Assembly (NCBI RefSeq): GCF_023243045.1
Contig: NZ_JALKFX010000098.1
Coordinates: 1 to 33,566, forward strand
Source of the DNA: Frankia sp. AgB32
Lineage (GTDB): Bacteria; Actinomycetota; Actinomycetes; Frankiales; Frankiaceae
Reading direction: 5' to 3'
DNA: 33,566 bases
Part shown: positions 4,344-33,566 of the stretch, piece after piece
Layout of the letters: each line of letters opens with the position of its first letter
Numbering within the stretch: the stretch's first letter is position 1
Made by a program: the position numbers and the translations under genes
Notes under the pieces: generated by a model
The model's input: only the letters and a program-made list of their open reading frames with translations
Databases searched by the model: none
Told to the model about the DNA's origin: nothing

Positions 4344-4371
4344 CCGCCCACCACACCGAAGCGAGGACATC

Positions 4372-6454: not shown

Positions 6455-6483
6455 GCCGCCCGTCGCGATGACGAGGAGCGCCG

Positions 6484-8472: not shown

Positions 8473-8500
8473 TGCTGAGGCCCCCCCCTTCTCCGGTGCG

Positions 8501-9304: not shown

Positions 9305-9465
9305 CTCAGGACACCGCGTCGGGTCGGTGGTCCAGCACTGTGGAAGTACGCATGCGTTCTGCCCAACCAATCACGGGTCGATGGCATCGCGCCGATGGCG
9401 ATGCCTCTGTGCGGGGTGCGGCGCGTGACTCCCGCCGCATGAATCCGAAAGGTGTCGGAAAGGTG

Positions 9466-14477: not shown

Positions 14478-15039
14478 GGCCCGGCAGGCTCTCGTCCTCG
14501 GCACCGATCGCGCCAATCGCACCGAACGCGCAGGCCAACTCGAGATAGGCCTTTCCGATCAGGTTCTGCTCGCTGTCCCGCAGATAGGCCTTGGCGTCAC
14601 AGGTGAGACGCAGCGGGCCGGGATCGGCCAGCGCGGCGGCGAGGAGCCGCTCGTCCATCACGACCGTGACCGACGCGTCGCCGGCGCCGGGCTTCAGGAA
14701 GTCGATCCGGCAGCTGCGCAGGAAGAACATGCTCAGCCCCCGCAGCCGGCGGGCGGTCGCGCCCAGGAAGGCCGCCGCGCCCGCCATGTCGGCCGCCAGG
14801 AAGAGCACCCCGGCGTGCAGCGTGCCGACGGAGTTGGTGAGCTCCGGGCGGTAGGTGATCGTGACCCGACCGGCGGTCGGACCGACCTCGGCGATGGTCA
14901 GGTCGACGAGGTCGTTGAAGGGGACGGTGGTCTGGAGAACCGCGCGCAGACCGTCATAGTCGGGGCTCTCGCCCGCGAACGGGTAATACGGCGAGAATGG
15001 TGTGGACCTGGCTCCGGTTTGCGCCGGCATGCTCGTCAC
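14464..15039 (-). CDS. Hotdog-fold thioesterase (PaaI/DUF4442-like)
   Basis: A 191-residue hotdog protein. The motif NSVGTLHAGVLFLAADMAG forms the central helix region typical of PaaI/DUF4442 acyl-thioesterases. The GTG start at 15039 overlaps the ATPase stop in GTGA, with AGGAG 7 bases upstream; an ATG nine bases downstream has no well-placed ribosome binding site. The protein ends inside the start of the AMP ligase gene. A thioesterase coupled to a ligase suggests release of a chain from ACP or CoA followed by re-activation, or editing of stalled chains. The PKS seen here has no thioesterase domain of its own. Substrate length is unknown. Confidence 0.82.
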   Translation of the reverse strand: MTSMPAQTGARSTPFSPYYPFAGESPDYDGLRAVLQTTVPFNDLVDLTIAEVGPTAGRVTITYRPELTNSVGTLHAGVLFLAADMAGAAAFLGATARRLRGLSMFFLRSCRIDFLKPGAGDASVTVVMDERLLAAALADPGPLRLTCDAKAYLRDSEQNLIGKAYLELACAFGAIGAIGAEDESLPGHVQR

Positions 15040-16193: not shown

Positions 16194-17035
16194 TTGATCC
16201 CCGATTGAAGGAAGGCGTTGGTGATACGTCGCGAGGCGAAGGCGTAGATCGCGAGAACCGGGAGAGTCGTGATCATGGCGGCCGCGAGCAGCGCCCCGGA
16301 CGTCGGGCCCTCCTGGTTGCCGAGGAGCTGGAGCCCGGCCTGGATGGTCGTCCGGTTCGCCTGGGGTGCGATCAGCGTCGGCCACAGGTACTCGTTCCAG
16401 GTGTTGATGAAGACGAGGATCGACACGGCGGCGAGCGCCGGCCGCAACAGCGGCAGGACGACCAGGCGCAGCGTCTGCGCGGGCCGGGCGCCGTCCACGA
16501 TCGAGGCCTCGATCAGGCTCGCGGGAATGGCGGCCAGGTACTCCCGCAACAGCAGGATCGGCAGACCGCACGCCGCGAGCTGCGGGACGATCAGTCCGAG
16601 GTAACTGTTACGCCAGCCCAGGTGGGTGGCGGCCAGGAACTGAGGAATGATCAGCGCCTGCGGCGGGATGAAAACCGCCGCGCCGGCCAGCAGCAACAGG
16701 GCGCCCGTCCAGCGAGGACGGAAGCGCACCACCGCGTACGCCGCACCGATAGCCACCGCGAGCTGCAGCACGGTGGCGCCGACCGCCATGATCACCGTGT
16801 TCAGCAACATCATCCTGAGGGGGAACCGAAACAACGCGTCCCGGTAGTTCTCCGTCGACATCGGCCAGGGGATCGGGCTGGTGGAGTACAGCTCGTTCGC
16901 CGGCCGCAGCGACGTGACCGCCACCCAGAACAGCGGAAACAGCAGCGCGACGATGACGATCAGCACACCGGCGTGCCAGGCGGACGCCACGGCCATGGAC
17001 CGCAACCGGGATCGGGCGGGCGACATCGGGTTCAC
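16190..17035 (-). CDS. ABC importer permease 2 (CUT1, MalG/UgpE type)
   Basis: A 281-residue integral membrane protein with six predicted helices. The cytoplasmic coupling (EAA) loop is seen as EASIVDGARPAQTLRLVVLPLLRPAL, matching binding-protein-dependent sugar permeases. NTWNEYLWP and the C-terminal SRRITNAFLQSGIK are highly characteristic of the MalG/UgpE branch. The start is GTG at 17035, overlapping the stop of permease 1 as GTGA. It forms the membrane channel together with the preceding permease. Confidence 0.9.
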   Translation of the reverse strand: MNPMSPARSRLRSMAVASAWHAGVLIVIVALLFPLFWVAVTSLRPANELYSTSPIPWPMSTENYRDALFRFPLRMMLLNTVIMAVGATVLQLAVAIGAAYAVVRFRPRWTGALLLLAGAAVFIPPQALIIPQFLAATHLGWRNSYLGLIVPQLAACGLPILLLREYLAAIPASLIEASIVDGARPAQTLRLVVLPLLRPALAAVSILVFINTWNEYLWPTLIAPQANRTTIQAGLQLLGNQEGPTSGALLAAAMITTLPVLAIYAFASRRITNAFLQSGIK

Positions 17036-18024
17036 CCGGCCGCGGGCGCGCCAGCGCGCCGGATTCGTCCGGTCACCAGGCGCACCGCCGCATAGCCGAT
17101 GGCGACGCCCCCAGTGATCACGACCGCGGCCGCCGCCGCGGTGCCGGTGTCGAAGAACGTGAACGCGTACGTGTAGATGCGGTAGAAGGCATTGTCGGTC
17201 GATCCGTCCGGACCGCCCTGGGTCACGAGGGCGACGTTAGTGAAGATCCACTGCCCGGCCAGCAGCACGCACAGCAGGCCGAGCAGGGCGACCGGCCGAA
17301 CCAGCTGGGGCACCACGACGTAGCGGACGATCTCCCAGCTGGTGGCGCCGTCGATCCGGGCCACCTCGATGGTGGACAGGTCGATCGCCGACAGGGAGGC
17401 GGAGAACAGCAGCGTGTTGAGACCGACGATCTTGCCCGTCGTGATGGCCACGATGACCAGCGGCGCCCACGACGGGTCGTTCAGCCACCCCGGGCCCGGC
17501 AGCCCGACACCGACGAGGACCGCGTTCGTGACCCCCTGGAGCGGATTGAGGATGAACTGCCAGGAGACCGCGTTGGCGGCCGGCGCCAGCACCACCGGCA
17601 GGAACAGCAGCGCACGGTAGACGCGGGACGCCCGTCCCGGCCGTAGCCACAGAGCGATGGCCAGCGCCAGCGGCACCGCCGTGGCCAGCGGCAGCATCAT
17701 GATCACATACGACCCTGTCTGCCACAGCGCGCGGTAGAAGTCGTGGTCGGCGAGCAGGCGGCGGTAGTTCGCCAGGCCAACGAAACGGGCTGGCGTGGTG
17801 AGGTTCCAGTCCAGCAGGCTCGCCACACCGGTGGCGACCATGGGCACGTAGACCCAGGCCAGCAGCGAGAGGATGGCCGGCGCGGAGTACGCCCAGGGCC
17901 CCGACCGGGTCCCGATGCCGGTGACCACGCGGCCATCCCGGCCTCCCCGGCCTTTCCGGCCATCCCGGGCGGACTGGGCGGTCCCGGGTGCGGCACCCGC
18001 GCCGGCCATCGTCGCTCCGGTCAT
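17032..18024 (-). CDS. ABC importer permease 1 (CUT1, MalF/UgpA type)
   Basis: A 330-residue permease. A charged, Gly/Arg-rich N-terminal tail of about 40 residues precedes six membrane helices; YSAPAILSLLAWVYVPM is the first. The EAA coupling loop is EVARIDGATSWEIVRYVVVPQLVRPV. ATG at 18024 overlaps the binding-protein stop as ATGA. The family imports carbohydrates or glycerol-3-phosphate-like polar solutes; the exact solute cannot be told from the permease. Confidence 0.9.
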   Translation of the reverse strand: MTGATMAGAGAAPGTAQSARDGRKGRGGRDGRVVTGIGTRSGPWAYSAPAILSLLAWVYVPMVATGVASLLDWNLTTPARFVGLANYRRLLADHDFYRALWQTGSYVIMMLPLATAVPLALAIALWLRPGRASRVYRALLFLPVVLAPAANAVSWQFILNPLQGVTNAVLVGVGLPGPGWLNDPSWAPLVIVAITTGKIVGLNTLLFSASLSAIDLSTIEVARIDGATSWEIVRYVVVPQLVRPVALLGLLCVLLAGQWIFTNVALVTQGGPDGSTDNAFYRIYTYAFTFFDTGTAAAAAVVITGGVAIGYAAVRLVTGRIRRAGAPAAG

Positions 18025-19352
18025 CGCGCCAGCGAACGAATCTTGTTCGCGGCGGCGGTGAGCACCGGTGCCGCATCCTTGCCCTGCAGAATGACCGGCG
18101 TGACGGCCTCGTCCTGGAGCACGACCACCGCCTGGTTGGCGCGGCTACCCTGGAAGTAGGTGTAGGGCGTCACGTCACCGATCTGGGCCAGCGACGGCAG
18201 CAGGCGCTTGTCCTGCTTGAAGTAGTCCCCGAGGTAGGCCGGATCGGACACGATCGCCGGCCGCAGTGGCAGATACCCGATGGACTTCGTGAGAATCGTG
18301 AAGCCCTGCGGGCTGGTGAGGAACTGGATGAACTTCCAGGCCGCCTGCTGCCTGCCCTTGTCCTTGCCGAGGACCGCCAGACCGGCCCCCGAATAGGTGG
18401 GCCTGGGCGCGGACCCGTCGAACGAGGGGAACGCGGCGGTGCGCAGGTCGAACTTGCCCTTCGCCGACTTCTCGAACGTCGACATGGCCGCCGTCGTGAA
18501 AATCATCATGCCGATGTTCCCGCCGGCGAAAGCCGCCTGGGCATCGGTCGCCGTCACCTTGGGCTGTTGCCCGCCGACAACGAGGTCGCGAATCGCGTTC
18601 AGGCCGGCGATCGACCGCGGCGAGTCGACGGTGACGGCGCCGCTGCCGTCCACCTCTCCGCCACCCGAGCTGTTCATAATCGATTGGGTCAGGTAGTCGG
18701 ACTTGCCGGGGTCGGCGACCCCGAAGTAGACGCCCTGCTTACCCGTCCTGGTGATGGCGGTGGCGGCGGCCTTCACCTCGGCCAGCGTCTTCGGTGGCCG
18801 GGCAGGATCCAGACCCGCCTTGATGAAGAGGTCCGCGTTGTAGTAGAGGACCGGCACCGAGATCGAGAACGGCATGATGTCGACCTTGCCGGTCCCGGAG
18901 TTGCTGACCGCCTTCAGGATGTTCGGGTAGATCCCGTCGGTGCCGGACTTCCACTCGGCCGCGGTCGGGATGTCCTGGACCGGGACCAGTGGAAGGGCCG
19001 AGCGGGCCTCGCCGGCCTTGCTCCAGCCAAGCTGGACCACGTCCGGCGGGCTGCCCGCCGCCGTCTCGGTACGCAGCTTGGTCAGCACATCCGCGGCCGC
19101 CACCGCCTCCGGCTTGATCGTGATGTTCGGGTTCGCCTTCTCGAACTCGTCGATCAGCTGCTGCGTACCCGCGCCGCAGCAGGGCGTCCCGTAGTTGTAC
19201 GACATGAAGCGGATAGCGATCGGACCACTATCCTTTGCCGCCACACCCTCACCTGAACTGCCGCAAGCTGTCACCGTCAGTCCCAGAGCTGCCGCGACGG
19301 TCGCCGCTACCAGGCCGAGACGGAACCTTCCTCCCCCCGTTCTCATAGTCAC
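18021..19352 (-). CDS. ABC importer substrate-binding lipoprotein (CUT1 family)
   Basis: A 443-residue exported lipoprotein. A basic n-region and hydrophobic core end in the lipobox LTVTAC, giving lipidated Cys30. The mature part (FMSYNYGTP, LIDEFEKANPNITIKPEAV) follows the fold of family-1 solute-binding proteins for sugars or glycerol-3-phosphate. GTG at 19352 overlaps the stop of the metallohydrolase gene as GTGA; an ATG two codons later is an alternative. The Cys-Cys pair near residues 62-63 is unusual for this family. Coupling to a hydrolase on one side and to lipid enzymes on the other suggests that the imported solute serves the lipid pathway, for example as a headgroup precursor; that is inference. 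Confidence 0.88.
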   Translation of the reverse strand: MTMRTGGGRFRLGLVAATVAAALGLTVTACGSSGEGVAAKDSGPIAIRFMSYNYGTPCCGAGTQQLIDEFEKANPNITIKPEAVAAADVLTKLRTETAAGSPPDVVQLGWSKAGEARSALPLVPVQDIPTAAEWKSGTDGIYPNILKAVSNSGTGKVDIMPFSISVPVLYYNADLFIKAGLDPARPPKTLAEVKAAATAITRTGKQGVYFGVADPGKSDYLTQSIMNSSGGGEVDGSGAVTVDSPRSIAGLNAIRDLVVGGQQPKVTATDAQAAFAGGNIGMMIFTTAAMSTFEKSAKGKFDLRTAAFPSFDGSAPRPTYSGAGLAVLGKDKGRQQAAWKFIQFLTSPQGFTILTKSIGYLPLRPAIVSDPAYLGDYFKQDKRLLPSLAQIGDVTPYTYFQGSRANQAVVVLQDEAVTPVILQGKDAAPVLTAAANKIRSLAR

Positions 19353-20496: not shown

Positions 20497-22068
20497 CTAC
20501 CCCGTCGTGGGTAGCGGGCGATAGCGGCTGGCCCGTGGCGGCGGAGTTACGCCGTGAAAACGCAGCGCGGCCACCCGTTGATGAAAGGCTGCGCCCCGCA
20601 TGATGTGGTGGGCGAGTTCCGGTGCCCGGCGGGCGCCAACCGGTTCCAGATAGGTTCCGCGCAGCCAGGTGTTGCAGGCCCCCATCGCCGGTCCACACCA
20701 GATCTGATAGTCCGCGACTCGGTCGGCGGCTCCGGACGTGGCCCATCGCGAGGACAACCCGAGATACCAACGAAAGACCAGTGCCATGCGTCTCCGCTCA
20801 TTACCCTCCGCCCGCTCCAATTGGGCGGGATCGCGCTCGGCGAAGTAGCGCCGCGTTTCTGCCCAGACCTCCTCCAGGGGCGCCCGGAAGACGTTTCGCT
20901 CCAGCGCGGCGCGGTCCGCCGCCGGAATGTCCGCGAGGCCGTCATGGCGCCGGTAGAGCTCGTACAACTGGCGGGCACGGGCCGCGAACATCGACCCTCG
21001 CCGCAGCACCTGGACCTCGGCACCGATCTCGAACATGTCCGCCGAGGGCGCCATCTCGCAGTCCGCCATGTCAGCCGCGCCCAGCATGGCCTTCGCCGCC
21101 GCGGACTGGTCGGACTCGACACATGCCTGGTTGATCGACCCGGTGACGACGTAGTCGGCGCCCATCGTGAACGCCGCCGCCGCGGCTGTCGGCGTCCCGA
21201 TCCCGCCGGCCGCGCCGACCCGGGCGGCACGGCCGGCATGACTCGCCCCGATCTCGTCCCGCAGGGCGATGATCTCGCCGAGCAGGACGGTGAGGGGGCG
21301 TCCGTCGGTGTGGCCGCCGGAGTCGGACTCGGCGGTGATGTCGTCGGCCAGCGGCACGGCAGCGGCGAGCCGCGCCTGCTCCGCGGTGATGAGGTCCTCG
21401 CGGAGCAGGGCATCGAGGAGCCCCGGCGGGGCCGGCCGCAGGAACAGCTCGGCGACCTCCCGACGGGACACCTTCGCGATGACCCGGTTGGCGATCTCGA
21501 CCTGCCCGTCGCGGGCCTCGCGCAGGCCGCGCGCGCGGTAGCGCACGATGTCCGGGGTCAGTCCGAGAAAGGCCGACGCCTCGACGCATCGCACCCCGTG
21601 GCGCAGGCACGCGTCGACCGTTTCGCGCTCCATCGCCGGCTCGCTCGGGCTGTGGATGACGTTGCACGCGTACGGCCGGCCGGGCAGTCGACGTTCCAGC
21701 AGCGCCAGCGCGCCGTCCAACCGGTCGGCCGGCAGACCGGCGGCGCCGAACGAGGCGAGCAGCCCGCGTTCGGCCATACTGATCACCAGGTCCGCGGAGG
21801 AGATTCCGCCCGCCATCGCCCCGGCCTGGTAGCACTGGCGAACCCCATGGGCGCGGAGGAAATCGCGGGAACCGAGGCGTTCGGGCGGTAGCGGCCCAAG
21901 GGTGAGCAGACGGCGCGCGGGTGAACCGTCCGGACCGCTCCCGTCGTTGGACAGCCAGTATCCGCCCGCGTGCCGGACGACGTGGACGGGCTCGGCCAGC
22001 CTGCTCAGGACCGCGTACACAGCGGCCGCCGACTGGCTCCGGGCTCCGGCGTCGAGAACGTGCGCCAT
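20497..22068 (-). CDS. pfaD: PfaD-like trans-acting enoyl reductase of a PUFA-type synthase
   Basis: A 523-residue flavoprotein closely resembling PfaD/OrfC-type enoyl reductases, an FMN TIM-barrel related to nitronate monooxygenase. Signature stretches are YQAGAMAGGISSADLV, LLASFGAAGL, NVIHSPSEPAMER, CVEASAFLGLTP, VIAKVSRREVAELF, DDITAESDSGGHTD, GIGTPTAAAAAFTMGADY, TGSINQACVE, MAPSADMFE and FRWYLGLSSRW. PfaD works in trans, reducing enoyl-ACP intermediates on the multidomain synthase; here its partner would be the PfaA-like protein starting at 27908. ATG at 22068 follows GAGGGGA. It is the first gene of the minus block and is divergent from the SDR at 22629, so both blocks are likely driven from the shared intergenic region. 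The symbol reflects family membership; the product is not necessarily EPA or DHA. Confidence 0.92.
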   Translation of the reverse strand: MAHVLDAGARSQSAAAVYAVLSRLAEPVHVVRHAGGYWLSNDGSGPDGSPARRLLTLGPLPPERLGSRDFLRAHGVRQCYQAGAMAGGISSADLVISMAERGLLASFGAAGLPADRLDGALALLERRLPGRPYACNVIHSPSEPAMERETVDACLRHGVRCVEASAFLGLTPDIVRYRARGLREARDGQVEIANRVIAKVSRREVAELFLRPAPPGLLDALLREDLITAEQARLAAAVPLADDITAESDSGGHTDGRPLTVLLGEIIALRDEIGASHAGRAARVGAAGGIGTPTAAAAAFTMGADYVVTGSINQACVESDQSAAAKAMLGAADMADCEMAPSADMFEIGAEVQVLRRGSMFAARARQLYELYRRHDGLADIPAADRAALERNVFRAPLEEVWAETRRYFAERDPAQLERAEGNERRRMALVFRWYLGLSSRWATSGAADRVADYQIWCGPAMGACNTWLRGTYLEPVGARRAPELAHHIMRGAAFHQRVAALRFHGVTPPPRASRYRPLPTTG

Positions 22069-22628: not shown

Positions 22629-23411
22629 ATGATGATGCCGCGGACAATGCATGGTCGAACGGCTATGGTGGTCGGAGCCTCCGGCGGAATCGGTCGGGCG
22701 GTAGCGCTGGCTTTCGCCCGCGAAGGTGCTGATGTGGCTCTGGCGGGTCGCGACGAAGCAGCACTTGAGCGGGTCGCCGAAAACTGCCGGGACCAGGGTG
22801 TGTCGGTTTTCACAGCACCGTTCGACCTGGCCGACGAGGAGGCTTGCCGCCGCGCGGTCGCGAAGGTCAAAGCTGGGTTCACCGCGCCAAACGTTCTGGT
22901 CAACGCCGCAGGAGTGGCGGACAGCAGGCGGTTCGCGGACATCACCGTCGATCTCTGGCGGAGCCTCATGCAGGTGCACGTGGAAGGCCCTCTCGTACTC
23001 ATGCAGGCGGTCCTGCCCCATATGATTTCCAGCGGCGTCGGCGCGATAGTGAACATCGGGTCGACCGCGTCCGTCCACGGCCTGCCCTACGCCGCTCCCT
23101 ACACTGCCGCGAAACACGCGCTGCTCGGGTTGACCAGGTCCGCCGCCGCCGAGTACGCCGATCGCGGGATCACCGTGAACTGCATCTGCCCGTACTATGT
23201 GGACACTCCGATGACCCATCAGGCCATTGACGAACGTATGCGGTCGACGGGGCGCGACCACGAAGCCGCGATCAGACCGCTCCTTAGTCCGCAGGGCCGA
23301 CTGATATCCACCGACGAGGTCGCGGCCACCTGCGTTTTTCTTGCCTCCGACGGCGGGGCGGCTATCACCGGTCAGGCGCTGCGCGTCGACGGTGGAAAGG
23401 TCCAGGGTTGA
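22629..23411 (+). CDS. FabG-like short-chain dehydrogenase/reductase
   Basis: A 260-residue classical SDR close to 3-oxoacyl-ACP reductases. It has VVGASGGIG (Rossmann), NAAG, NIGSTAS with the catalytic Ser, Tyr158/Lys162 in YTAAK, and the C-terminal LRVDGG that ends many FabG proteins. Three ATG codons in a row (22629, 22632, 22635) follow AAGGGAA; the second or third has the better spacing, so the true start may be 3-6 bases later. It heads block 3 and probably reduces a ketone in the lipid or its precursor. It differs from the SDR at 5609, which carries a C-terminal extension. Confidence 0.87.
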   Translation: MMMPRTMHGRTAMVVGASGGIGRAVALAFAREGADVALAGRDEAALERVAENCRDQGVSVFTAPFDLADEEACRRAVAKVKAGFTAPNVLVNAAGVADSRRFADITVDLWRSLMQVHVEGPLVLMQAVLPHMISSGVGAIVNIGSTASVHGLPYAAPYTAAKHALLGLTRSAAAEYADRGITVNCICPYYVDTPMTHQAIDERMRSTGRDHEAAIRPLLSPQGRLISTDEVAATCVFLASDGGAAITGQALRVDGGKVQG

Positions 23412-23435: not shown

Positions 23436-23441
23436 AGGAGG
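23436..23441 (+). promoter_or_regulatory. Strong ribosome binding site
   Basis: AGGAGG seven bases before ATG at 23449. It fixes the start of the flavoprotein-reductase fusion and excludes the in-frame ATG at 23341, which lies inside the SDR gene. Confidence 0.85.
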
Positions 23442-23448
23442 AATCGCG

Positions 23449-25794
23449 ATGCCTGACGTCGAAAGCAGTCGCGACAGCGCACCTCGGGGACATGTTTATG
23501 TTCTCGGCGCGAGCATCGCGGGGCTGCTGGCCGCACGCGTTCTCGCGGATCACTTCGAGCGGGTGACCGTGCTCGAACGCGACCCGTTCACAGCCGGGGG
23601 TTACCGCGACGGCGTCCCACAGGGCCGGCACATCCACGCCCTCATGCACGGTGGCAGTCAGATCATGGCGGAGCTCTTCCCCGGCCTGCTGGCGGAGATG
23701 ACCTCCCTGGGGGTGCCCCACACCCGATGGCTGGAGCAGTCGCGCTGGTATCTGGGCGGGACTTCGATGCGGGCGCCCCGCCATACCGAGACGACCCTGG
23801 CCACCCCGAGCCGCCCCCTGTTGGAGTACCTGTTGCGGACCCGGGTGGCGTCCTACCCAAACGTGACGCTGCGCGACCAGACCAGAGTGATCGGCCTTAC
23901 TCACACGCCTGGCCGGATCACCGGGATCCGGGTGATGGCCGCCTCGTCCGACACCACGGAGATCCTCCCGGCCGATCTCGTCGTCGACACGACGGGGCGC
24001 AACTCCGCAGCCGGTCGCTGGCTGGCCGAACTCGGCTACCCGACCCCGGTGGAGTCGCGGGTCGAGGTCGACCTCGGCTACTGCTCGCGGCGCTACCGCC
24101 GTCGGCCGGGTGACCTCGGTGGAGATGTCGCGCTGACCGCGTCGACGGTGCCGGGCATGCCGGGCGCCGCCGTACTCGCCGTCGAGGGCGACGCCTGGCA
24201 CGTCACGCTCTCGGGCACGCTCGGCCGGCGAGCACCGACGGACCCGATCGGTTACCTCGACTACGCCGCCCGACTGCCCATCCCGGACGTGTTCGAGCTG
24301 ATCCGAGACGCGCAGGCGTTGGACGATCCGGTCCAGCACCGGGTGCGCGACTCCATCCGCCGCCGCTATGAGGACCTTCCGCATCCGCCCGCCGGCTTCA
24401 TCTCGATGGGCGATGCGGTGACGAGTTTCAACCCCATCTACGCCCAGGGCATGACGGTCGCCGCGCAGGAGGCACTGGTGCTGCGGGCGATACTGCGCGA
24501 ACCGGGCCCGGTGCGACCACGGCGGTGGTACCGCGGCATCGCGCCCGTCATCGACGCCGCCTGGGGGATGTCCACCGCCATCGACCTGCGCTCGCCGCTG
24601 GTCAACGGGGAACGGACGTGGGTCGGCACCCTGTTCGGGCGGTACCTCAAGCGTGTCCAGCTGGCGACTGCCCACTCCCCTTACGTCACCGCTCGGATGC
24701 TCGAAGTCATCAACCTCACCCGACATCCCCGCATCCTGCTGCGCCCAGGGGTCGCCGTGCGACTGGCGGCGCTGGCCGTGACCCGCGGCCGGCCGACCAC
24801 CGCGGCACCCCGCGACAGCGGCGCACCCCCGGCCGCACCCGAGGTGGGCACCGTGGTCGTGCGCGACCGGATCGACGCGGCCGACGGGGTGATCTCGCTG
24901 CTCCTCGCCCGCCCGGACGGCGCGCCGCTGCCACCCTGGACGCCCGGCGCCCACATCGACGTCCGGGTCGGCGACGACGAGATCCGCCAGTACTCGCTGT
25001 GCGGCGACCCGGCCGAGGCCACGCGGTGGCGCATCGCGGTGCTGCGCGAACCAGCGGGCCGGGGCGGCTCGGCCTACCTGCACGAGCGGGCGGTCGGGGG
25101 CGCGCTGCTGGCGGTGGGCGGCCCGCGCAACAACTTCCCGTTCCTCCCCGGCACCCATACGGTGCTGATCGCCGGCGGTATCGGCATCACCCCGCTGCTT
25201 CCGATGATCGACCAGCTGCGGGCAACGGGCCGCTCGTGGTCGCTGCACTACGGCGGGCGCGATCGGGCGGCGATGGCCTTCGCCGCCAGGCTGGCCGGTG
25301 ACCCGAACTGCACGCTGTATCCCCAGGACGAGGTCGGCCCGTTGCCGCTGGAGACCATCCTCGACGCCCAGCCGGCGGACGGCACGGCGGTGTACTGCTG
25401 CGGGCCGGAAGGGCTGCTCACCGCCGTCGAACTGCTCTGCCGCGAGCGACCGGCCATCTCCCTGCACGTGGAACGGTTCCATCCCCGCCCGACCGGCACG
25501 GACACCACGGCCGGTGCCGCCCCAGACCGGCCCTACGAGTTGGAACTACGCCGCTCCGGGCGCATTCTCACGATCGAGCCCGGCCAGTCGATCATCGACG
25601 GACTGTGCGCGGCCGGCGTCGAGGTGCCCTTCTCCTGCCGGGAGGGCACCTGCGCGAGCTGCGAGACACCGGTGCTCGCCGGCACGATCGTCCACCGCGA
25701 CTCGGTGCTGACCGAGGAGGAGCGGCTGGCCGGCAACACCATGATGCTCTGCGTCTCGACGGCCAGCTCCGAGCGCCTCGTCCTCGATCTCTGA
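23449..25794 (+). CDS. Flavin monooxygenase fused to a phthalate-dioxygenase-reductase-type module
   Basis: A 781-residue two-part protein. Residues about 14-450 are an FAD-dependent oxidoreductase of the squalene-epoxidase/hydroxylase-like group: Rossmann VLGASIAGLLAARVL, ERDPF, and the second FAD motif SMGDAVTSFNPIYAQGM. Residues about 467-680 are a ferredoxin-NAD(P)H-reductase-type module of the phthalate dioxygenase reductase class, with RQYSL (flavin) and GGIGITPLLPMI (nicotinamide). Residues about 690-781 are a C-terminal plant-type 2Fe-2S domain with Cys730, Cys735, Cys738 and Cys768. The start follows AGGAGG. Each half is a familiar family, but joining them in one chain is unusual: the reductase may feed electrons to the flavin half or to the lone CYP102-like P450. 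The linker (about 24790-24845) keeps the coding composition, so the fusion looks genuine. Confidence 0.85.
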   Translation: MPDVESSRDSAPRGHVYVLGASIAGLLAARVLADHFERVTVLERDPFTAGGYRDGVPQGRHIHALMHGGSQIMAELFPGLLAEMTSLGVPHTRWLEQSRWYLGGTSMRAPRHTETTLATPSRPLLEYLLRTRVASYPNVTLRDQTRVIGLTHTPGRITGIRVMAASSDTTEILPADLVVDTTGRNSAAGRWLAELGYPTPVESRVEVDLGYCSRRYRRRPGDLGGDVALTASTVPGMPGAAVLAVEGDAWHVTLSGTLGRRAPTDPIGYLDYAARLPIPDVFELIRDAQALDDPVQHRVRDSIRRRYEDLPHPPAGFISMGDAVTSFNPIYAQGMTVAAQEALVLRAILREPGPVRPRRWYRGIAPVIDAAWGMSTAIDLRSPLVNGERTWVGTLFGRYLKRVQLATAHSPYVTARMLEVINLTRHPRILLRPGVAVRLAALAVTRGRPTTAAPRDSGAPPAAPEVGTVVVRDRIDAADGVISLLLARPDGAPLPPWTPGAHIDVRVGDDEIRQYSLCGDPAEATRWRIAVLREPAGRGGSAYLHERAVGGALLAVGGPRNNFPFLPGTHTVLIAGGIGITPLLPMIDQLRATGRSWSLHYGGRDRAAMAFAARLAGDPNCTLYPQDEVGPLPLETILDAQPADGTAVYCCGPEGLLTAVELLCRERPAISLHVERFHPRPTGTDTTAGAAPDRPYELELRRSGRILTIEPGQSIIDGLCAAGVEVPFSCREGTCASCETPVLAGTIVHRDSVLTEEERLAGNTMMLCVSTASSERLVLDL

Positions 25795-25935: not shown

Positions 25936-27162
25936 ATGTACGACGTGATCGTCGTCGGCGCCCGCTGCGCCGGATCTCCCCTCGCGATGCTGCTGGCCCG
26001 CGCCGGGAGAAGGGTCTTGCTGGTGGATCGGGCGACGTTCCCGAGCGACACGGTCTCGACCCACTTCATCCAGCAGACCGGCCTCGCGCTGCTGCGCGAC
26101 TGGGGCGTGCTGGCGGCAGCGGTGGGTGACGCCACGCCCATCCGGTACATGACCTTGTCCTTCAAGGACATCAGGATCAGCGGCTTCTCAGATCCCATCG
26201 ATGGCATCGACGCGGTCTACGCGCCCCGGCGGACGGTGCTGGACGCCGCCCTCGTCGAGGCGGCGCAGAGCGCCGGAGCGGAGGTCCGCCAGGGCTACTC
26301 GGTCGAGGAGCTCGTCTTCGACGACGAGGGCCGGGTGGTGGGCATCCGCGGGCGGTCGGCCGCCGGAACGGTCAGCGAGGAGCGGGCGCGGGTCGTCGTG
26401 GGCGCCGACGGCGCGAACTCCACCATCGCCCGGCTGGCCGGCGCCACCACCTACAACCACGTGCCGGCGTCGTGCTTCATCTACTACAGCTACTTCGCCG
26501 GCCTGCCGTGGTCCTCCTTCCACCACCGCACCGGCCACGACGAGCAGCAGATGGGGGCCTGGCCGACCAACGACGGGCTGCACCTGGTCGCCGTCATGCG
26601 CAAGCGGCCCCGGTTCCGGGCGTTCCGCGCCGCCGACGAGGCGAACTTCCAGGAGGTCGTCGATCAGGTCACCCCCGATCTCGGGGACGATCTGCGCCAG
26701 GCCGAGCGGGTCGCGCCGCTGCAGCCCATGCTCTATCCGGACAACTACTACCGGCAGGCCAGCGGGCCGGGCTGGGCGTTGGTCGGCGATGCCGGCTACT
26801 ACAAGGATCCGTACACGGGAAACGGTATCGCCGACGCGTTCCGCCACGCCGGAATGCTGTCGAGCGCACTGTTGTCCGGGCTGGACACGGACGACCAGGT
26901 TCTCGACACGGCGCTGCGGGCGTATGGCGCGCACCGCGACGAGGAAACCGCCGAGACCTACAACTTCACCTGCACGATCTCCGAACTCGACCTGCCGTCG
27001 GACATCTACGACGCCTTCGACGCGTCGAGCCGCCACGAGCGTTACCGCACGGAGTTCTTCCGACTCCTGGCCGGCGCCACGCCCGGTCATGAGTTCTTCG
27101 CCCCCGAGCGGCTCGAGCGCATGTACCGCGAGGTCGGATTCCAGCCGACCGTCGGAGCCTGA
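25936..27162 (+). CDS. FAD-dependent monooxygenase/reductase (geranylgeranyl-reductase-like)
   Basis: A 408-residue class A flavoprotein. The N-terminal FAD motif VVGARCAGSPLAMLLARAG is followed by VDRATFPSDT, then VVGADGANSTIARLAG and the GD motif VGDAGYYKDPYTGNGIADAF. The layout fits the geranylgeranyl reductase/halogenase/hydroxylase superfamily; I see none of the classic flavin-halogenase tryptophan motif (WxWxIP). ATG follows GGAAGGAA. It lies 141 bp after the fusion flavoprotein and 33 bp before the SGNH gene. Hydroxylation, epoxidation or double-bond reduction of the lipid chain are all possible. Confidence 0.85.
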   Translation: MYDVIVVGARCAGSPLAMLLARAGRRVLLVDRATFPSDTVSTHFIQQTGLALLRDWGVLAAAVGDATPIRYMTLSFKDIRISGFSDPIDGIDAVYAPRRTVLDAALVEAAQSAGAEVRQGYSVEELVFDDEGRVVGIRGRSAAGTVSEERARVVVGADGANSTIARLAGATTYNHVPASCFIYYSYFAGLPWSSFHHRTGHDEQQMGAWPTNDGLHLVAVMRKRPRFRAFRAADEANFQEVVDQVTPDLGDDLRQAERVAPLQPMLYPDNYYRQASGPGWALVGDAGYYKDPYTGNGIADAFRHAGMLSSALLSGLDTDDQVLDTALRAYGAHRDEETAETYNFTCTISELDLPSDIYDAFDASSRHERYRTEFFRLLAGATPGHEFFAPERLERMYREVGFQPTVGA

Positions 27163-27195: not shown

Positions 27196-27849
27196 ATGCC
27201 CGTCCGACTCGTGGTCATCGGCGACAGTTTCGTCGAGGGCCGCGGCGATCCCGCTCCGCACGGGTCCGGCTACCGTGGCTGGCTACCGACCTTCGCGGGC
27301 CTGCTCGGCCTGCGCGACGACGAGTGTCGCAACCATGGTGAGCACCTCGCGACCACGGCCGCGGTCCTCGACCGGCAACTCGACGCGGTCCGCTCCGCCC
27401 GCCCGCGGCTCGCCGGGATGATCGCCGGCTTCAACGACATCGTCGGCGAATACCGCCCGGCCGAGTTCCGAGCGAATCTCACGACGATTTTCGACGCCCT
27501 GACGCGCCACGCGTCCCTGGCGTTCACCGCCACCTATCCGGACGTCACCCGGCGCATGGCCCTCGCCGCCCCGGCCGGGGCGGAGATCAGGGCCCGGATC
27601 CGGGATGCGAATGCCGCGCTGCGCACCGTCGCGGCGGAGTTCAACCTGGTCTGCCTCGACACGGCCCGCCCGGGAAACGGATGGGACGCCGACGAACTCT
27701 GGTCCGCCGACGGGATACATCCCAACCGCGCCGGCCACCTGCGCTTCGCCGGGGAGATGGCCGACGCCGTCGCCGACAGCCTGGGAATCGCGCTCACCGC
27801 GACGGCGCCGGACCCGGCTCCGCCGCTTCCGGCGCTTGCGTTCCACTGA
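27196..27849 (+). CDS. SGNH/GDSL-family hydrolase
   Basis: A 217-residue esterase/acyltransferase-fold protein. Block I is VIGDSFVEG with nucleophile Ser11, block III is the Asn in GFNDI, and block V is DGIHPN with Asp172 and His175. The start follows GGGAGGGA. There is no signal peptide, so it acts in the cytoplasm. The family hydrolyses or transfers acyl esters; here it may add or remove an acyl group on the lipid or release a chain. It sits between the flavoprotein and the PKS in what looks like one transcript. Confidence 0.88.
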   Translation: MPVRLVVIGDSFVEGRGDPAPHGSGYRGWLPTFAGLLGLRDDECRNHGEHLATTAAVLDRQLDAVRSARPRLAGMIAGFNDIVGEYRPAEFRANLTTIFDALTRHASLAFTATYPDVTRRMALAAPAGAEIRARIRDANAALRTVAAEFNLVCLDTARPGNGWDADELWSADGIHPNRAGHLRFAGEMADAVADSLGIALTATAPDPAPPLPALAFH

Positions 27850-27907: not shown

Positions 27908-30900
27908 ATGGATTCGACTTCCTCGTTCGACGATCGACGGCTGGCGAACACTCCGATCGCCATCGTGGGAATGGCCGGGCTGTTCCCACAGGCCCGGAAC
28001 AGCGGCGAGTACTGGCGGAACATCGTGGCCGGGGTCGACTGCTCGTCCGAGGTCCCGCCCGACCGCTGGCGGGTCGCGGACTACTACGATCCGGACCCCG
28101 CGGTACCGGACAAGGTCTACGCCAAACGCGGCGGATTCCTTCCCGACATCGACTTCAGCCCGATCGAGTTCGGCCTGCCACCGAATCTGCTCGGGGTGAC
28201 CAGCAGCCTCCAGACGTTGAGCCTGCTGGTGGCCCGGGACCTCCTGGCCGACGCGGGCGCGGTCGGTTCCGCGTGGTACGACCCGGCCCGCACCGGCGTC
28301 GTCCTCGGGGTCGTCGGTTGTGTCGGCCTGATGCACCCGCTGGCCATGCGGCTGTCGACCCCGGTCCTGCGCGAGGTCGTGCGCAGCTGCGGGCTGACGG
28401 AGGCCGACGCCGAGGAGATCTCCGACCGGTTCGCCAGGGCCTTCGCGCCCTGGGAGGAGAACAGCTTCCCCGGGCTGCTGGCCAACGTCACCGCCGGGCG
28501 CATCGCCAACCGGCTCAACCTCGGCGGGATGAACTGCACGGTCGACGCCGCCTGCGCCGCCTCGCTGTCGGCCGTGCGGATGGCCGTCAACGAGCTCGTC
28601 GACGGCCGCGCCGACATGATGATCACCGGTGGCTGCGACACCGAGAACTCGATCTTCACCTACATGTGCTTCAGCAAGACCGGCGCCCTGGCCCACTCCG
28701 ACCGGGTCCGGCCGTTCGACCAGTCCGCCGATGGCACGCTGCTGGGCGAGGGCATCGGGCTGCTGGCACTCAAGCGGCTGGCCGACGCCGAGCGCGACCA
28801 CGACCGGATCTACGCGGTGATCCGCGGCATCGGCGCCTCCAGCGACGGGCGGGCCAAGAGCATCTACGCGCCCCGGGCCGAGGGCCAGCAGCTCGCGCTG
28901 CGGCGCGCCTACGACGACGCCGGCTTTCCCATCTCATCGGTGGAGCTGTTCGAAGCGCATGCGACGGGCACCGCGGTGGGCGACCGGACCGAGATCGGCG
29001 CCCTCGTCTCGGTCCTCGACGAGTCCACCACCGACCGCGGGTACGCGGCGATCGGGAGTGTGAAATCGCAGATCGGGCACACCAAGGGCGCGGCCGGCGC
29101 GGCGAGTCTCATGAAGACCGCGCTGGCGCTGTTCCATAAGGTCGTGCCGCCGACGATCGGCATCGACAGCCCGAACAAGGCGATCGAGGGCGGTCCGCTC
29201 TACCTCAACACCACCGCTCGCCCATGGATCCGCGATCCCGACCGGCCGCAGCGCCGGGCCGGCGTGTCCGCGATGGGCTTCGGCGGCACCAACTTCCACG
29301 TCGTGCTGCAGGAGCACGGCCCGGCGCCGGCCGTCGCGCTCCATCGGCGCGCCCGGATCCTCTGCTGGCACGCCGAGGACACCGCCGCGCTGGCCCAGGC
29401 GGTCCGGTCGGGCCCGGCCGCGACGACGGACGGTCCGATCCCCGCCGACGCACCGCGGCTGGCCCTGATCACCACCGACGAGGACCGAGTGGCCGAGCTG
29501 TGCGAGGTGGCGGCCGGCCTGCTCGAGGCCCGGCCCGACGCGGACGACTGGTCCGCCCCGGCCGGGATCTACTTCCGCTCCCGCGCGCTGCGTCGGCCCC
29601 GGGTGGGTGCGCTGTTCGCAGGCCAGGGCAGCCAGTACGTCAACATGGGGATCGAACTGGCCCTGACCGACCCTGCGGTCAGGCAGGCCTTCGACGAGGC
29701 CGAGTTCGCCTTCGCGGGCGCCGGCGGGCGCCTGGGACCAGCGGTTTATCCGCCGCACGCCTTCCGGGAGCAGGACGCCGGCGAGGCAGAGGAGACGCTG
29801 CGGCAGACGCGGTTCGCCCAGCCCGCCATCGGCGCCCTGGCCGTCGGCCAGTTCAGGGCGCTACGTGAGCTCGGGCTGAGCTGTGCCGCCTACCTCGGGC
29901 ACAGCTTCGGCGAGCTCACCGCACTGTGGGCCGCCGGCGCGCTCACCGACGGCGACTTCTTCCGGTTGGCCTGCGCGCGCGGACGGGCCATGGCCCCGCG
30001 TCACCCGGACGACGAGGCCGGCGCGATGGCCGCGTTGCAGTGCTCGGCCGCGCACGCCGGTCCCCTGCTGGCAGCCGCGCCGGAGGTGACGATCTGCAAC
30101 TTCAACGCACCGGACCAGGTGGTCGTCGGGGGTCCGACAGCACAGGTCGAAGCGGTCGTCGCCGCCGGCCAGGAGGCCGGAATCAAGGCCCGACGGCTGC
30201 CCGTGTCGGCCGCGTTCCACACCTCGCTCGTCGCCCACGCGGTCGAGGACTTCCGGGCCGCGGTCGCCGGAGTCGACCTGCGCGCCCCGGACGGACCCGT
30301 CCACGCCAACACCGCCGGCTCCAGCTACGGGCCGGATGTGGCGGCGAACCGCGACGTGCTGGTGAACCAGTTGCTGAGCCCGGTCGACTTCGCCGGCGGG
30401 GTGCGGGCCATCACCGCGGAATCCGGCTGCAACATCCTGGTGGAGTTCGGGCCCAAGCAGGTACTCACCCAGCTGGCCCGCCGGACCGTCGCCGAGGACG
30501 TGGTCACCGTCTCCGTGGACGCGGGCCCGCTCGGCGACAGTGAGGTCGCCTTTCACCGCGCCGTCGCGCAGTTGGTCGTGCTCGGCGTCCCGCTGCGCGT
30601 GCCGCTCTCGTCGGCGGCGGCACCCGCTCTGGGGAGCGGCGCCGCGGGCACGCCCGCCGCCGGGACGGTGTCCCTGACCGGTGCGGAGTACGTGCCGCCG
30701 GCCCGCCGGCAGGCCTACGTCGACGCGATCCAGGTCGAGTACCACCCCGACGCGGCCACACCGGCGCCGCTGCCGGCCCACGTAGCCCCGCCAGCCCCGC
30801 AGGCGCTGCCAGCTCCACAGCCGAGCACGCAGTTCACCCACGGCGACGGACACATGCCGACGGAGGGGCCGGATCCCGACGATTCGCTGTGGCGCTTCGC

Positions 30901-33566
30901 CGACGTCCTGAGCCGCCAGACTGATCTGCACACCCGGTACCTCGACGGCCAACTGAAGATCACCGATGAGCTGCTGACCGCGCTGCGCGGGCCCGCCGCA
31001 GCGGGGCGGCCTGCCCTGGTCGGCCACATCGCGACAGTCAGTGCGGCGATCAGCGGCGCGCACTCCGCGGCGAACAACGTACTCGCCCGGCTGGCCCAGG
31101 CCGGGCTGGCCCAGGCCGGGCTGGGCGAGTCCGGGCTGGGCGATGGCCCGGCCGCCGCCGCACCGATCGACGTCCCCGCAGCGGGTGATGGGGATACCGA
31201 GGCAAGATCGGTGCTGCTCTCCCCGCCGATTGCCGCCGCGCCGCTCCTGCCCGCCGTGCCGCTGCCACTGACCGGCGCCCCGCCCGCCCTGGACTCCGGC
31301 CCCGCACCTGCCGGCGGATCGATGGCAGCACCGCCGACGACAGCCCAGGCCGGTGCCGCGAGCGGCCGCCCGGCGGGGGAGTCGCTGCGGGTGGCCGTCG
31401 TGGAGATGGTCGCCGACCGCACGGGCTACACCGTCGAGATGATCGACCCGGAGATGGACCTCGAAGCCGACCTCGGCGTCGACTCCATCAAACGAGTACA
31501 GATCGCCGGCCTGCTCCGCGAACGCTACCCACACCTCCCCGCACTCGGCCCGGAAACACTCGCCGAACTACGCACCATCACCCAACTCGTCGGCCACCTC
31601 GCCACCCCCGACCCGCAACCCGCCGAGGACGCGGCGCCCGTCGGCGACGAGGCGACGGGGGCCGGCGGCAACAGCGGCCCGCTCACCATCATCCCGCGGT
31701 ACCGGTTGCTGACCGTGCCGCTGGCCCCGGCCGACCAGGCGCCGAACCCCTTTCCGGCAAGGCCGACGGCGGCCGTCGTCCGGCTGGGACCGGGCGCCGA
31801 CGATGCTCGTGCGCTGCGGGAACACCTTGGTGGCGCGGGCTGGACGGTCGACGAGTTGCTGCTGGACGACGAGCCTGCGGCGGGCTGGCTCGGCGCGGAC
31901 TGGGACGACGCCGGCCTGGAACAGCGGTTGGCCACGTTCTTCGCCGCTCGGCCCCGCCTCGATGCCTGTGTCGTATGTGTTGCGGCTTCGCGCGACCCCG
32001 GTCGCGACGTCCGCCTCCTCGCCGACACCGTGCTCGTGGCGAAGCACGCGACCACCCGGCTACGCGCGGCCGGCGCCGACAGCCGGGCCGCCTTCGTCAC
32101 CCTGACCCGGATCGACGGAAGCATGGGCGGGCCGGGCACCGGCGCGGATGCTTCGCCGGACCCGGCGAGCCGAGTACTCGGCGGTCTGGCCGGCCTGAGC
32201 AGAACGATCGCCGCCGAGTCGCCCGCCCTGTTCGCCCGAGCGCTGGACATCCATCCCGGCCTACCCGCGCATCGGCTCGGGCCCCACCTCCTGGCGGAAC
32301 TGCGCGATGCCGCCGTCGTCCCGGCGGTGGTCGGAATCGACGCCGCCGGGAACCGGTGCACGATCGCGGCGATTCCCCAGGCGAACGCGGACGGCGGGCC
32401 CGATCAGACCGCGGGCGCGCAGCCGGCCGTGCGCGCCGATGATGTCATTCTGGTCACCGGGGGCGGTCGAGGCATCACCGCCCGCTGCGTCATCGCGCTG
32501 GCGGCGGCGGTCCCGGCCGAGTTCGTCCTGCTCGGCCGGACCGACGTCACACACCCCCTGCCCGCCTGGTCCATCGGTGCCGAGGACGCCGATCTGGCTC
32601 GCGAGATGATCGCCGACCACTCGCTCACGGGGGCCCCACCGCATCCGCGGGCCGTCGCGGCGGCGGTTGCCCAGGTGCGGGCGCAACGGGAGATCGCGAG
32701 AACCCTCCAGGCGGTGGAGGCCGCCGGCGCCCGAGCCCGCTACGTCAGCGTGGACATCAACGATCCGGCCGCCGTCGCCAGCGCCCTCGAGGCGGATCGG
32801 GACCGGATCAGCGTGCTCGTGCACGGTGCCGGCGCGCTGGCCGACGGCCTGCTCGCGCACAAGCGCGGCGACGATCTGCGGCGGGTCTTCGGCCCCAAAC
32901 TGGCCGGCCTGGCCGCGGTTCTCAGCGCGGTGGCGGGCGCGCCGCTGCGCCAGGTCGCGTTGTTCTGCTCGGTGGCCGGCGTCTTCGGCAACAGCGGGCA
33001 GTCCGACTACGCCGTCGCGAACGAGGCGTTGAGCCGCTGGCCCGTCCCGGCGTCCCACGGCCCACGCCCGCGCGTCACCGCGATCGCCTGGGGCGCGTGG
33101 GACGGCGGCATGGTGACCGCCGATCTGCGGGCGCTGTTCGAGTCACGGGGTGTGCCTCTCCTCGACGCCGACGCGGCCGCCGAGGCATTCGTCGCCGAGC
33201 TGGTCGACCGCCGGGACAGCGGCAGCGTCCTGCTCGCGCCGCCACTGGCGCTGCACGGCCACCATTCGCAACCAGCCGGCACGGACCATGTCGCCTGTCG
33301 CGACATCGACCCGGGGGCCGACGACCTCCTCAGGGCACACCGGATCGACACAACGATCGTGCTGCCAGCGGCCCACGCGATCGGCTGGATGATCTCGGTG
33401 ATCGAGGCCGCATACCCGGACCACCGGGTGGACACGATCGAGGGGTTCGAGGTGCTGCGGGGGATCACGTTCGACACGGACGGCGAACGCCCCCACCATG
33501 TGCGGCTATCAGCCCGCTCCGGCGACGCGGGCGAACTGGTCGTGGGGGGGGGGGGGGGGGGGGGGG
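27908..33566 (+). CDS. PfaA/HglE-like iterative type I polyketide (PUFA-type) synthase, 3'-truncated
   Basis: An open frame runs from ATG at 27908 (after GAAAGAAG) to the window edge, about 1,886 codons, with no stop. Domains: ketosynthase about 12-440 with Cys216 in VDAACAASL, EAHATGT and KSQIGHTKGAAG; acyltransferase about 565-870 with FAGQGSQY, Ser666 in GHSFGE and AAFH ending at His771, as in malonyl-specific ATs; a long Ala/Pro-rich linker; one acyl carrier domain with Ser1193 in LGVDSIKRVQI; a ketoreductase with TGGGRGI from about 1517 and Ser1688/Tyr1701; then the start of a hotdog dehydratase-like domain (HRIDTTIVLP from His1811). The KS and the DSIKR carrier motif are those of PUFA synthases and heterocyst-glycolipid synthases. 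PUFA synthases carry several tandem carriers; only one is seen here. The missing dehydratase end and partner subunits should lie beyond the window. Confidence 0.92.
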   Translation, partial: MDSTSSFDDRRLANTPIAIVGMAGLFPQARNSGEYWRNIVAGVDCSSEVPPDRWRVADYYDPDPAVPDKVYAKRGGFLPDIDFSPIEFGLPPNLLGVTSSLQTLSLLVARDLLADAGAVGSAWYDPARTGVVLGVVGCVGLMHPLAMRLSTPVLREVVRSCGLTEADAEEISDRFARAFAPWEENSFPGLLANVTAGRIANRLNLGGMNCTVDAACAASLSAVRMAVNELVDGRADMMITGGCDTENSIFTYMCFSKTGALAHSDRVRPFDQSADGTLLGEGIGLLALKRLADAERDHDRIYAVIRGIGASSDGRAKSIYAPRAEGQQLALRRAYDDAGFPISSVELFEAHATGTAVGDRTEIGALVSVLDESTTDRGYAAIGSVKSQIGHTKGAAGAASLMKTALALFHKVVPPTIGIDSPNKAIEGGPLYLNTTARPWIRDPDRPQRRAGVSAMGFGGTNFHVVLQEHGPAPAVALHRRARILCWHAEDTAALAQAVRSGPAATTDGPIPADAPRLALITTDEDRVAELCEVAAGLLEARPDADDWSAPAGIYFRSRALRRPRVGALFAGQGSQYVNMGIELALTDPAVRQAFDEAEFAFAGAGGRLGPAVYPPHAFREQDAGEAEETLRQTRFAQPAIGALAVGQFRALRELGLSCAAYLGHSFGELTALWAAGALTDGDFFRLACARGRAMAPRHPDDEAGAMAALQCSAAHAGPLLAAAPEVTICNFNAPDQVVVGGPTAQVEAVVAAGQEAGIKARRLPVSAAFHTSLVAHAVEDFRAAVAGVDLRAPDGPVHANTAGSSYGPDVAANRDVLVNQLLSPVDFAGGVRAITAESGCNILVEFGPKQVLTQLARRTVAEDVVTVSVDAGPLGDSEVAFHRAVAQLVVLGVPLRVPLSSAAAPALGSGAAGTPAAGTVSLTGAEYVPPARRQAYVDAIQVEYHPDAATPAPLPAHVAPPAPQALPAPQPSTQFTHGDGHMPTEGPDPDDSLWRFADVLSRQTDLHTRYLDGQLKITDELLTALRGPAAAGRPALVGHIATVSAAISGAHSAANNVLARLAQAGLAQAGLGESGLGDGPAAAAPIDVPAAGDGDTEARSVLLSPPIAAAPLLPAVPLPLTGAPPALDSGPAPAGGSMAAPPTTAQAGAASGRPAGESLRVAVVEMVADRTGYTVEMIDPEMDLEADLGVDSIKRVQIAGLLRERYPHLPALGPETLAELRTITQLVGHLATPDPQPAEDAAPVGDEATGAGGNSGPLTIIPRYRLLTVPLAPADQAPNPFPARPTAAVVRLGPGADDARALREHLGGAGWTVDELLLDDEPAAGWLGADWDDAGLEQRLATFFAARPRLDACVVCVAASRDPGRDVRLLADTVLVAKHATTRLRAAGADSRAAFVTLTRIDGSMGGPGTGADASPDPASRVLGGLAGLSRTIAAESPALFARALDIHPGLPAHRLGPHLLAELRDAAVVPAVVGIDAAGNRCTIAAIPQANADGGPDQTAGAQPAVRADDVILVTGGGRGITARCVIALAAAVPAEFVLLGRTDVTHPLPAWSIGAEDADLAREMIADHSLTGAPPHPRAVAAAVAQVRAQREIARTLQAVEAAGARARYVSVDINDPAAVASALEADRDRISVLVHGAGALADGLLAHKRGDDLRRVFGPKLAGLAAVLSAVAGAPLRQVALFCSVAGVFGNSGQSDYAVANEALSRWPVPASHGPRPRVTAIAWGAWDGGMVTADLRALFESRGVPLLDADAAAEAFVAELVDRRDSGSVLLAPPLALHGHHSQPAGTDHVACRDIDPGADDLLRAHRIDTTIVLPAAHAIGWMISVIEAAYPDHRVDTIEGFEVLRGITFDTDGERPHHVRLSARSGDAGELVVGGGGGGG
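31091..31150 (+). repeat. 15-bp in-frame tandem repeat in the PKS linker
   Basis: Two perfect copies of CTGGCCCAGGCCGGG are followed by two degenerate copies, encoding LAQAG, LAQAG, LGESG and LGDGP in the flexible segment between the AT and the carrier domain. It probably arose by slippage in low-complexity linker sequence. Confidence 0.8.
33544..33566. other. Terminal run of 23 G, likely sequencing/assembly artefact
   Basis: The window ends in an uninterrupted G homopolymer inside a conserved coding domain. Poly-G tails at contig ends are a known artefact of two-colour Illumina chemistry, where no signal is read as G. The glycines it would encode should not be treated as protein sequence. 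Confidence 0.85.

Follow-up and report, generated by a model that had tools for sequence, protein, structure and literature searches.

A flavin monooxygenase fused in frame to a PDR-type iron-sulfur reductase in Frankia and Nocardia: a candidate self-sufficient epoxidase in a PfaA/PfaD-type lipid cluster

We analyzed a 33,566-nucleotide stretch of DNA from Frankia sp. AgB32 (the window; contig NZ_JALKFX010000098.1), and report here on a gene within it that encodes two redox enzymes in one polypeptide. The gene is a single uninterrupted frame on the forward strand, running from an ATG at 23449 to a stop at 25794 and encoding 781 amino acids (aa). A ribosome-binding-site-like AGGAGG (23436..23441, forward strand) can be read seven bases before the ATG, and the short-chain dehydrogenase/reductase (SDR) gene upstream stops at 23411. 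The open reading frame (ORF), Pfam, phmmer searches of PDB sequences and fused homologues in Nocardia arizonensis (locus L009) and Frankia sp. R82 (L010) together divide the product into a flavin monooxygenase (FMO) of the Lsd18/MonCI type (aa 1-455) and a reductase of the phthalate dioxygenase reductase (PDR) type (aa ~467-781). An earlier reading of the window, made from the sequence only, had proposed just such an in-frame attachment, and independent searches recovered both domains within the one ORF.

By sequence and predicted fold, the N-terminal half is a member of the Lsd18/MonCI polyene epoxidase family. Pfam lists 10 families for the protein at E <= 0.1, two of them above their cut-offs: PF01494 (FAD_binding_3, aa 15-349) in the FMO half and PF00111 (Fer2, aa 701-772) in the reductase half. 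Searched against PDB sequences with phmmer, the FMO half matched Lsd18/LasC (1.3e-55, over aa 16-384) and MonCI (1.5e-51), with no further match at 1e-6. Foldseek, run with an AlphaFold model, also placed Lsd18 and MonCI at the top (Lsd18-type fold match, 5.5e-43 over 446 columns), human SQLE being a far weaker match. The likeness to epoxidases suggested by the sequence-only reading is supported; the likeness to squalene epoxidase is a general one, and membership of that family was rejected (PF08491 (SE), 14 bits vs a cut-off of 20.1). The flavin adenine dinucleotide (FAD) site of Lsd18/MonCI-type FMOs is present, with its GxGxxG-type motif, stacking histidine and GD motif. On the forward strand, the dinucleotide-binding motif GASIAG (aa 20-25; 23506..23523) aligns with GGGMAG of Lsd18 and is identical across the three fusions except for I or V at aa 23. 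His63 (23635..23637), invariant in 23 aligned rows, is the counterpart of Lsd18 His71, which stacks on the isoalloxazine ring (PMC12144862). The GDAVTSFNPIYAQGM motif (aa 321-335; 24409..24453) is conserved across the family.

The C-terminal half is a complete PDR-type module with predicted flavin mononucleotide (FMN), NAD and 2Fe-2S sites; the FMN-binding, NAD-binding and C-terminal plant-type 2Fe-2S domains follow one another in PDR-type order. Two NAD-binding Pfam models fall at or just below their cut-offs, PF08030 (NAD_binding_6; 22.2 vs 22.2, no single stretch being significant alone) and PF00175 (NAD_binding_1; 20.6 vs 22), and PDB alignments nevertheless run through the whole half, led by the reductase halves of two self-sufficient P450s of CYP116B type, 6kbh (5.7e-71) and 6laa (6.7e-70), then 7ylr and phthalate dioxygenase reductase, 2pia (9.4e-53). 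Foldseek matched this half to 6kbh, 6laa and 2pia. The motif RQYS (aa 513-516; 24985..24996), which we take to bind FMN, GGIGITP (aa 576-582; 25174..25194) and CGPEG (aa 651-655), presumably the NAD(P)-binding motifs, and the 2Fe-2S ligands C730-x4-C735-x2-C738-x29-C768 (25636..25752; PF00111), all on the forward strand, are identical in the three fusions, which bears out the earlier proposal of a complete reductase. In the AlphaFold model (mean pLDDT 75.1, pTM 0.59), the FMO half is good and the reductase half, modeled from three alignment rows, is weaker; the placement of the domains relative to one another is therefore uninformative. The alignment behind the model comprised 23 rows, after removal of L026 and L034 (stops in range) and of L011, L047, L057, L058 and L065. 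Residues 447-462, with pLDDT below 50, fall in the linker between the halves (aa ~445-466; 24781..24846, forward strand), a variable proline/alanine-rich segment whose length differs among the three fusions.

The fusion is, on comparative sequence grounds, real, rare and conserved across species. Full-length matches were found at 2 of 80 genome loci, in Frankia sp. R82 (81% identity) and Nocardia arizonensis (67%), so that the domain order for which the sequence-only reading recommended a search does recur. The three proteins align end to end, with the cofactor motifs of both halves the same apart from the one I/V difference and with the linker as the variable part. The fusion occurs in at least 2 of 393 genomes sampled across the class, namely that of the window and R82, in at least 1 of 396 across the phylum, again that of the window, in at least 1 of 148 from Nocardia and in at least 1 of 301 from the family of N. 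arizonensis; in Nocardia, 23 of the 148 genomes have some match at 1e-100, one of them full length. These counts are lower bounds because only 2 or 3 candidates were scored per genome (class, phylum, family), or 7 (Nocardia genus), and diverged fusions may have escaped. No PADLOC match at 1e-3 pointed to a defense role for the fusion.

That two genes were joined by an assembly or sequencing error strikes us as next to impossible. The earlier reading had tied such an artefact to homologues that are all split and to a frameshift near 24800. Two other species share the in-frame fusion, and where split homologues are adjacent to each other in relatives (described below), their genes come in the opposite order, an outcome that no frameshift near 24800 could bring about. 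Third-position GC stays at 0.78-0.97 across the junction (40-codon windows, codons 401-520), such that the linker reads like coding DNA, as the earlier reading had judged it to be. No point in favor of an artefact was found.

The fusion lies within a set of 14 genes that are collinear in the window genome, R82 and N. arizonensis, in the order P450, FadD, thioesterase, four ABC transporter genes, metallo-beta-lactamase fold protein, PfaD, SDR, fusion, FMO2, GDSL hydrolase and PfaA. On the reverse strand, the set opens with a P450 resembling the heme domain of CYP102/BM3 and lacking a reductase of its own (11313..12764; 1.1e-123 to 8hkj and 4e-120 to BM3), whose counterparts in the two other fusion clusters are 83% and 75% identical. 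It is followed on that strand by a FadD-like acyl-CoA/ACP ligase (12843..14522; Pfam, same place in both other clusters), a thioesterase-like protein (matched stretch 14554..14964; 39% in tblastn with the thioesterase-like protein of C44, another contig of the window genome), an ATP-binding cassette (ABC) transporter (15039..19352) made up of an ATPase (15039-16235 matched), two permeases and a substrate-binding protein (18021-19352), and a PfaD-type enoyl reductase (20497..22068; TIGR02814, 599.1 vs a cut-off of 449.25 bits). Forward-strand genes flank the fusion: the SDR oxidoreductase directly upstream (22629..23411), a GDSL/SGNH hydrolase (27196..27849), both identified by Pfam and in the same place in L009 and L112, and, adjoining the fusion in all three species, FMO2, a second FAD enzyme that is geranylgeranyl-reductase/halogenase-like (25936..27162; PF01494, with TIGR02032 below cut-off). 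The last gene is a PfaA-type synthase with KS-AT-ACP-KR domains (27908..33566, forward strand; Pfam and TIGR02813, 1363.8 vs a cut-off of 1010.1 bits). The window is the whole contig, and its end at 33566 cuts PfaA within a glycine run of the translation. In N. arizonensis, a protein with a FabA-like domain lies downstream.

PfaA and PfaD of the window both pass the curated NCBI cut-offs for proteins of polyunsaturated fatty acid (PUFA)-synthase type, and in three of three species the two are only a few genes away from the fusion, making an unsaturated chain a plausible substrate; an acyl chain from the PfaA/PfaD-type synthase is what the neighborhood suggests. PfaA/PfaD-type secondary lipid synthases are known in Frankia genomes, their products being described as unknown (PMC3098273). 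The window genes at 773-11216 were not found beyond the P450 in ~15 kb of R82 and 13 kb of N. arizonensis and were accordingly left out of the core set. Among them, one forward-strand ORF (6484-8472) combines an MFS transporter with an in-frame glyoxalase/VOC domain after it, each scoring above its Pfam cut-off; it is possibly a second fusion, or two genes joined by an indel.

The two parts of the fusion also occur as separate genes. On contig C44 of the window genome, a reductase gene is directly followed by an FMO gene. Of the 13 genomes from the window's genus, 11 have this reductase-first adjacent pair, in the reverse order of the fusion; in two of these (G006 and G009) the FMO is truncated by the end of a contig, and no pair was seen in G003 and G012 at E <= 1e-40. 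In all nine complete pairs (L089, 7611-10083, and L103-L110), the FMO frame has as its first possible start a TTG within the last codons of the reductase gene, giving an overlap of 11 bases, and in four of them (L103, L105, L106 and L109) no other ATG, GTG or TTG precedes the FAD motif. An overlap of this kind with a conserved TTG likely reflects translational coupling of reductase and FMO. That the two occur both fused, as FMO-reductase, and separate, as reductase-FMO, is what would be expected if they work together, and not if they had been joined at random. Common to the pair clusters are an acyl-CoA dehydrogenase, a thioesterase, an alpha/beta hydrolase, parts of an ABC transporter and as many as three P450s.

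Among plasmids, 961 records matched, of which only one, from Rhizobium sp. RCAM05350, covers more than 80% of the fusion. This match (L101, 12025-14394; 94% covered) was rejected as a full-length fusion: a reductase, which in the record is spread over three frames, precedes a separately encoded FMO, the same order as in the pairs above. About 3.5 kb before this pair, on the other strand, an epoxide hydrolase gene is annotated. Within the window genome, contig C215 carries a long open frame with a PDR-like reductase after an upstream ORF; it too was rejected as another fusion, the upstream ORF being separate and, by reading only, like a fumarylacetoacetase-type hydrolase.

In trees of each half, fused and paired forms fall into one Frankiaceae group. 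Fused and Frankiaceae FMOs make up a group of 21 rows (SH-aLRT 99, in a quick tree with 98 rows), and the corresponding reductases make up one of 22 rows (97/94, in a careful tree with 37 rows), set apart from three P450-fused reductases (L143-L145, termed CYP116B-like from the P450 in the same frame) and from sampled Rieske-associated ones. The fused proteins fall outside the pair-gene group in both trees, indicating that the fusion was not derived from within the sampled pairs. Rhizobium rows are long branches of unsure placement. The trees were built without L001-L008, L010, L091-L100 and L102 (duplicates, short fragments and one plasmid locus), and without FMO pieces of 300 aa or less, including the cut FMOs of L113 and L114.

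Four known systems offer comparisons. The solved members of the FMO family, Lsd18/LasC and MonCI, share with the fusion its phmmer and top fold matches and the histidine on the flavin ring; they differ in being stand-alone enzymes of polyether polyketide pathways (PMC10560226, PMC12144862), whereas the fusion has an attached PDR reductase and a PfaA/PfaD-type synthase as neighbor. The P450s of the CYP116B class (6kbh, 6laa) have the same layout of N-terminal oxygenase, linker and C-terminal PDR-type FMN/NAD/2Fe-2S reductase, and their electrons pass from NAD(P)H through FMN and 2Fe-2S to heme (PMC7260179). The oxygenase of the fusion is instead a PHBH-fold flavoprotein, whose acceptor FAD needs two electrons before O2; PF00067 is absent among the 10 Pfam families at E <= 0.1, and the N-terminal half is an FMO, which sets the protein outside CYP116B. 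Rieske-type oxygenase reductases (2pia, and the reductase beside a Rieske gene at L090) are built from the same three parts and, unlike that of the fusion, serve a separately encoded Rieske oxygenase. StyA2B/IndA2B are likewise natural fusions of FMO and reductase, usually clustered with another FMO (PMC6165268). Their reductase supplies reduced FAD, that of the fusion is an iron-sulfur protein of PDR type, and no flavin reductase family appears at E <= 0.1 in Pfam.

We propose that the fusion is a catalytically self-sufficient FMO whose reductase half feeds its own FMO, a reading to which we give an even chance. By analogy with CYP116B, the C-terminal half would pass a hydride from NAD(P)H to FMN and single electrons through the 2Fe-2S cluster to the FAD of the N-terminal half. 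The twice-reduced FAD would then react with O2 to give a C4a-(hydro)peroxide, as predicted for MonCI (PMC10560226), and this would oxygenate, most likely epoxidize, a double bond in a PfaA/PfaD-type acyl chain; the reductase half may also serve other oxygenases of the cluster. Complete cofactor motifs in both halves, kept in three species, argue for self-sufficiency, as do the closest solved relatives of the FMO half, which are polyene epoxidases by sequence and fold, and those of the reductase half, which in CYP116B proteins feed an oxygenase from an equivalent C-terminal position. The overlapping reductase-FMO pairs of the same genus also favor it, and the Rhizobium pair and the grouping of fused and paired forms in the trees point the same way. 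Archaeal geranylgeranyl reductase and plant zeaxanthin epoxidase, both of PHBH fold, are said to take electrons from ferredoxin, which would make the proposed route chemically reasonable; our search of the open-access literature found nothing usable on ferredoxin-driven zeaxanthin epoxidase as a precedent. Tentatively, then, and with odds that we would put somewhat below even, the protein may be a PHBH-fold counterpart of CYP116B that receives electrons singly at its FAD from the attached 2Fe-2S reductase, tailors lipids of PUFA-synthase-like origin and possibly shares electrons with the P450 and the second flavoenzyme.

Several observations weigh against self-sufficiency. MonCI works with either NADH or NADPH (FAD being supplied) and benefits by only ~20% when a flavin reductase is included (PMC10560226), so that it is not obvious that the family requires a partner, and the authors of the Lsd18 study suggest a PHBH-like mechanism with direct reduction by NADPH (PMC12144862). 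We looked in the fused FMO for lost residues of a direct NAD(P)H route and saw none clearly: in the columns whose conservation reaches 85% or more across 76 relatives from beyond the Frankiaceae group (the Rhizobium FMO being left out of the groups), the fused set departs only at column 410, where S replaces D, and at column 417, where M or L replaces F, with no loss of family-conserved residues hinting that the route is gone. The module may thus speed up, control or replace direct reduction. No structure puts the 2Fe-2S cluster near FAD, the AlphaFold model being weak in the reductase half. The 11-base overlap is not proven in the five of nine pairs in which a GTG further in offers an alternative start, plausibly so in L089, L104 and L107; in L108 and L110, the only other candidate sits one codon ahead of the FAD motif. 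Of the 80 genome loci, 78 have no reductase in the sequence read, up to 6 kb on each side, and in other Frankiaceae genera the FMO stands without such a reductase in the stretch covered at eight of eight loci (L111, L115-L121; two of these are contigs of about 4-5 kb). The two genes share a contig in G017 and G019, ~38 kb apart, and at E <= 1e-40 G014 has the FMO without the reductase and G024 and G031 the reductase without the FMO. Finally, P450s are found at eight of nine complete-pair loci, the ninth (L104) stopping just past the FMO, and at five (L103, L105, L106, L109 and L110) a same-strand P450_2 begins 12 bases after the paired FMO.

This last set of observations leads to the main rival, unlikely in our judgement and yet well worth keeping in view, in which the fused reductase acts as an electron hub, a single supply protein kept at the assembly line that mainly or also reduces the BM3-like P450 (11313-12764) or FMO2 (25936-27162). 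Both candidate acceptors are conserved in three of three fusion clusters, and the co-directional P450_2 would fit the same picture. In related genera, same-clade reductases without an FMO lie beside a transporter at eight of eight loci and near a P450 at four (L127, L128, L130 and L140), and a P450 lies near the reductase-less FMO at seven of eight loci, L118 being the exception. A regular-expression scan for motifs, run over the stretches with fused, paired and related genes, returned four matches, none a convincing small P450-type ferredoxin, in a crude scan confined to these loci (L152, L113 and L114 apart) and blind to ferredoxins elsewhere in the genomes. There is also a precedent, in that the StyA2B/IndA2B fusion is thought to act mainly as a reductase, also for its partner FMO (PMC6165268). 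Set against these points, the reductase is attached to the FMO and not to the P450 in all three species, the FMO frame of the pairs starts within the reductase gene, and BM3-type P450s are normally fed by an FAD/FMN reductase (PMC7260179). The neighborhoods support a shared electron supply no less than an exclusive partnership with the FMO, and the P450s of the clusters, with no other donor recognized in the scan, leave room for a hub that also reduces the P450; such a hub and a self-sufficient epoxidase were the two functions put forward in the sequence-only reading. The two halves could also be largely independent, with the FMO reduced directly by NAD(P)H, as has been proposed for Lsd18/MonCI, and the reductase half a flavin reductase or an operon-fusion leftover. 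The activity of MonCI without a reductase (PMC10560226) and the family-conserved residues retained in the FMO half would agree with this, which we nonetheless think distinctly improbable. The reductase motifs, including the four cysteines, are kept at 67-81% identity across three species, arguing against a leftover; moreover, PDR-type reductases, to our knowledge, route electrons through the cluster, and we know of none that releases free reduced flavin.

As a side observation, L118 (in G032, Frankiaceae) has a same-clade FMO beside PfaA-like (31%), FMO2-like (32%), metallo-beta-lactamase and ABC transporter genes, with no reductase in the 14 kb read. This arrangement may resemble the state before fusion.

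Each half of the protein belongs to a known family, and it is the combination that is new to us; searches of the open-access literature aimed at such a fusion found no report in titles or the starts of abstracts, subscription journals and preprints lying outside their scope. The FMO-reductase fusions known to us all use flavin reductases and transfer reduced FAD, and we know of PDR-type reductases only as feeding iron centers (heme, Rieske). If the self-sufficient reading is right, a PDR reductase coupled to an FAD oxygenase would open a different route for electrons into a large family of oxygenases. As the pair exists fused, adjacent and apart in close relatives, the way in which polyene-epoxidase FMOs are reduced would become directly testable, and a self-sufficient polyene epoxidase would be useful in biocatalysis. 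For Frankia and Nocardia, the fusion would link an uncharacterized PfaA/PfaD-type lipid cluster to an oxygenation step.

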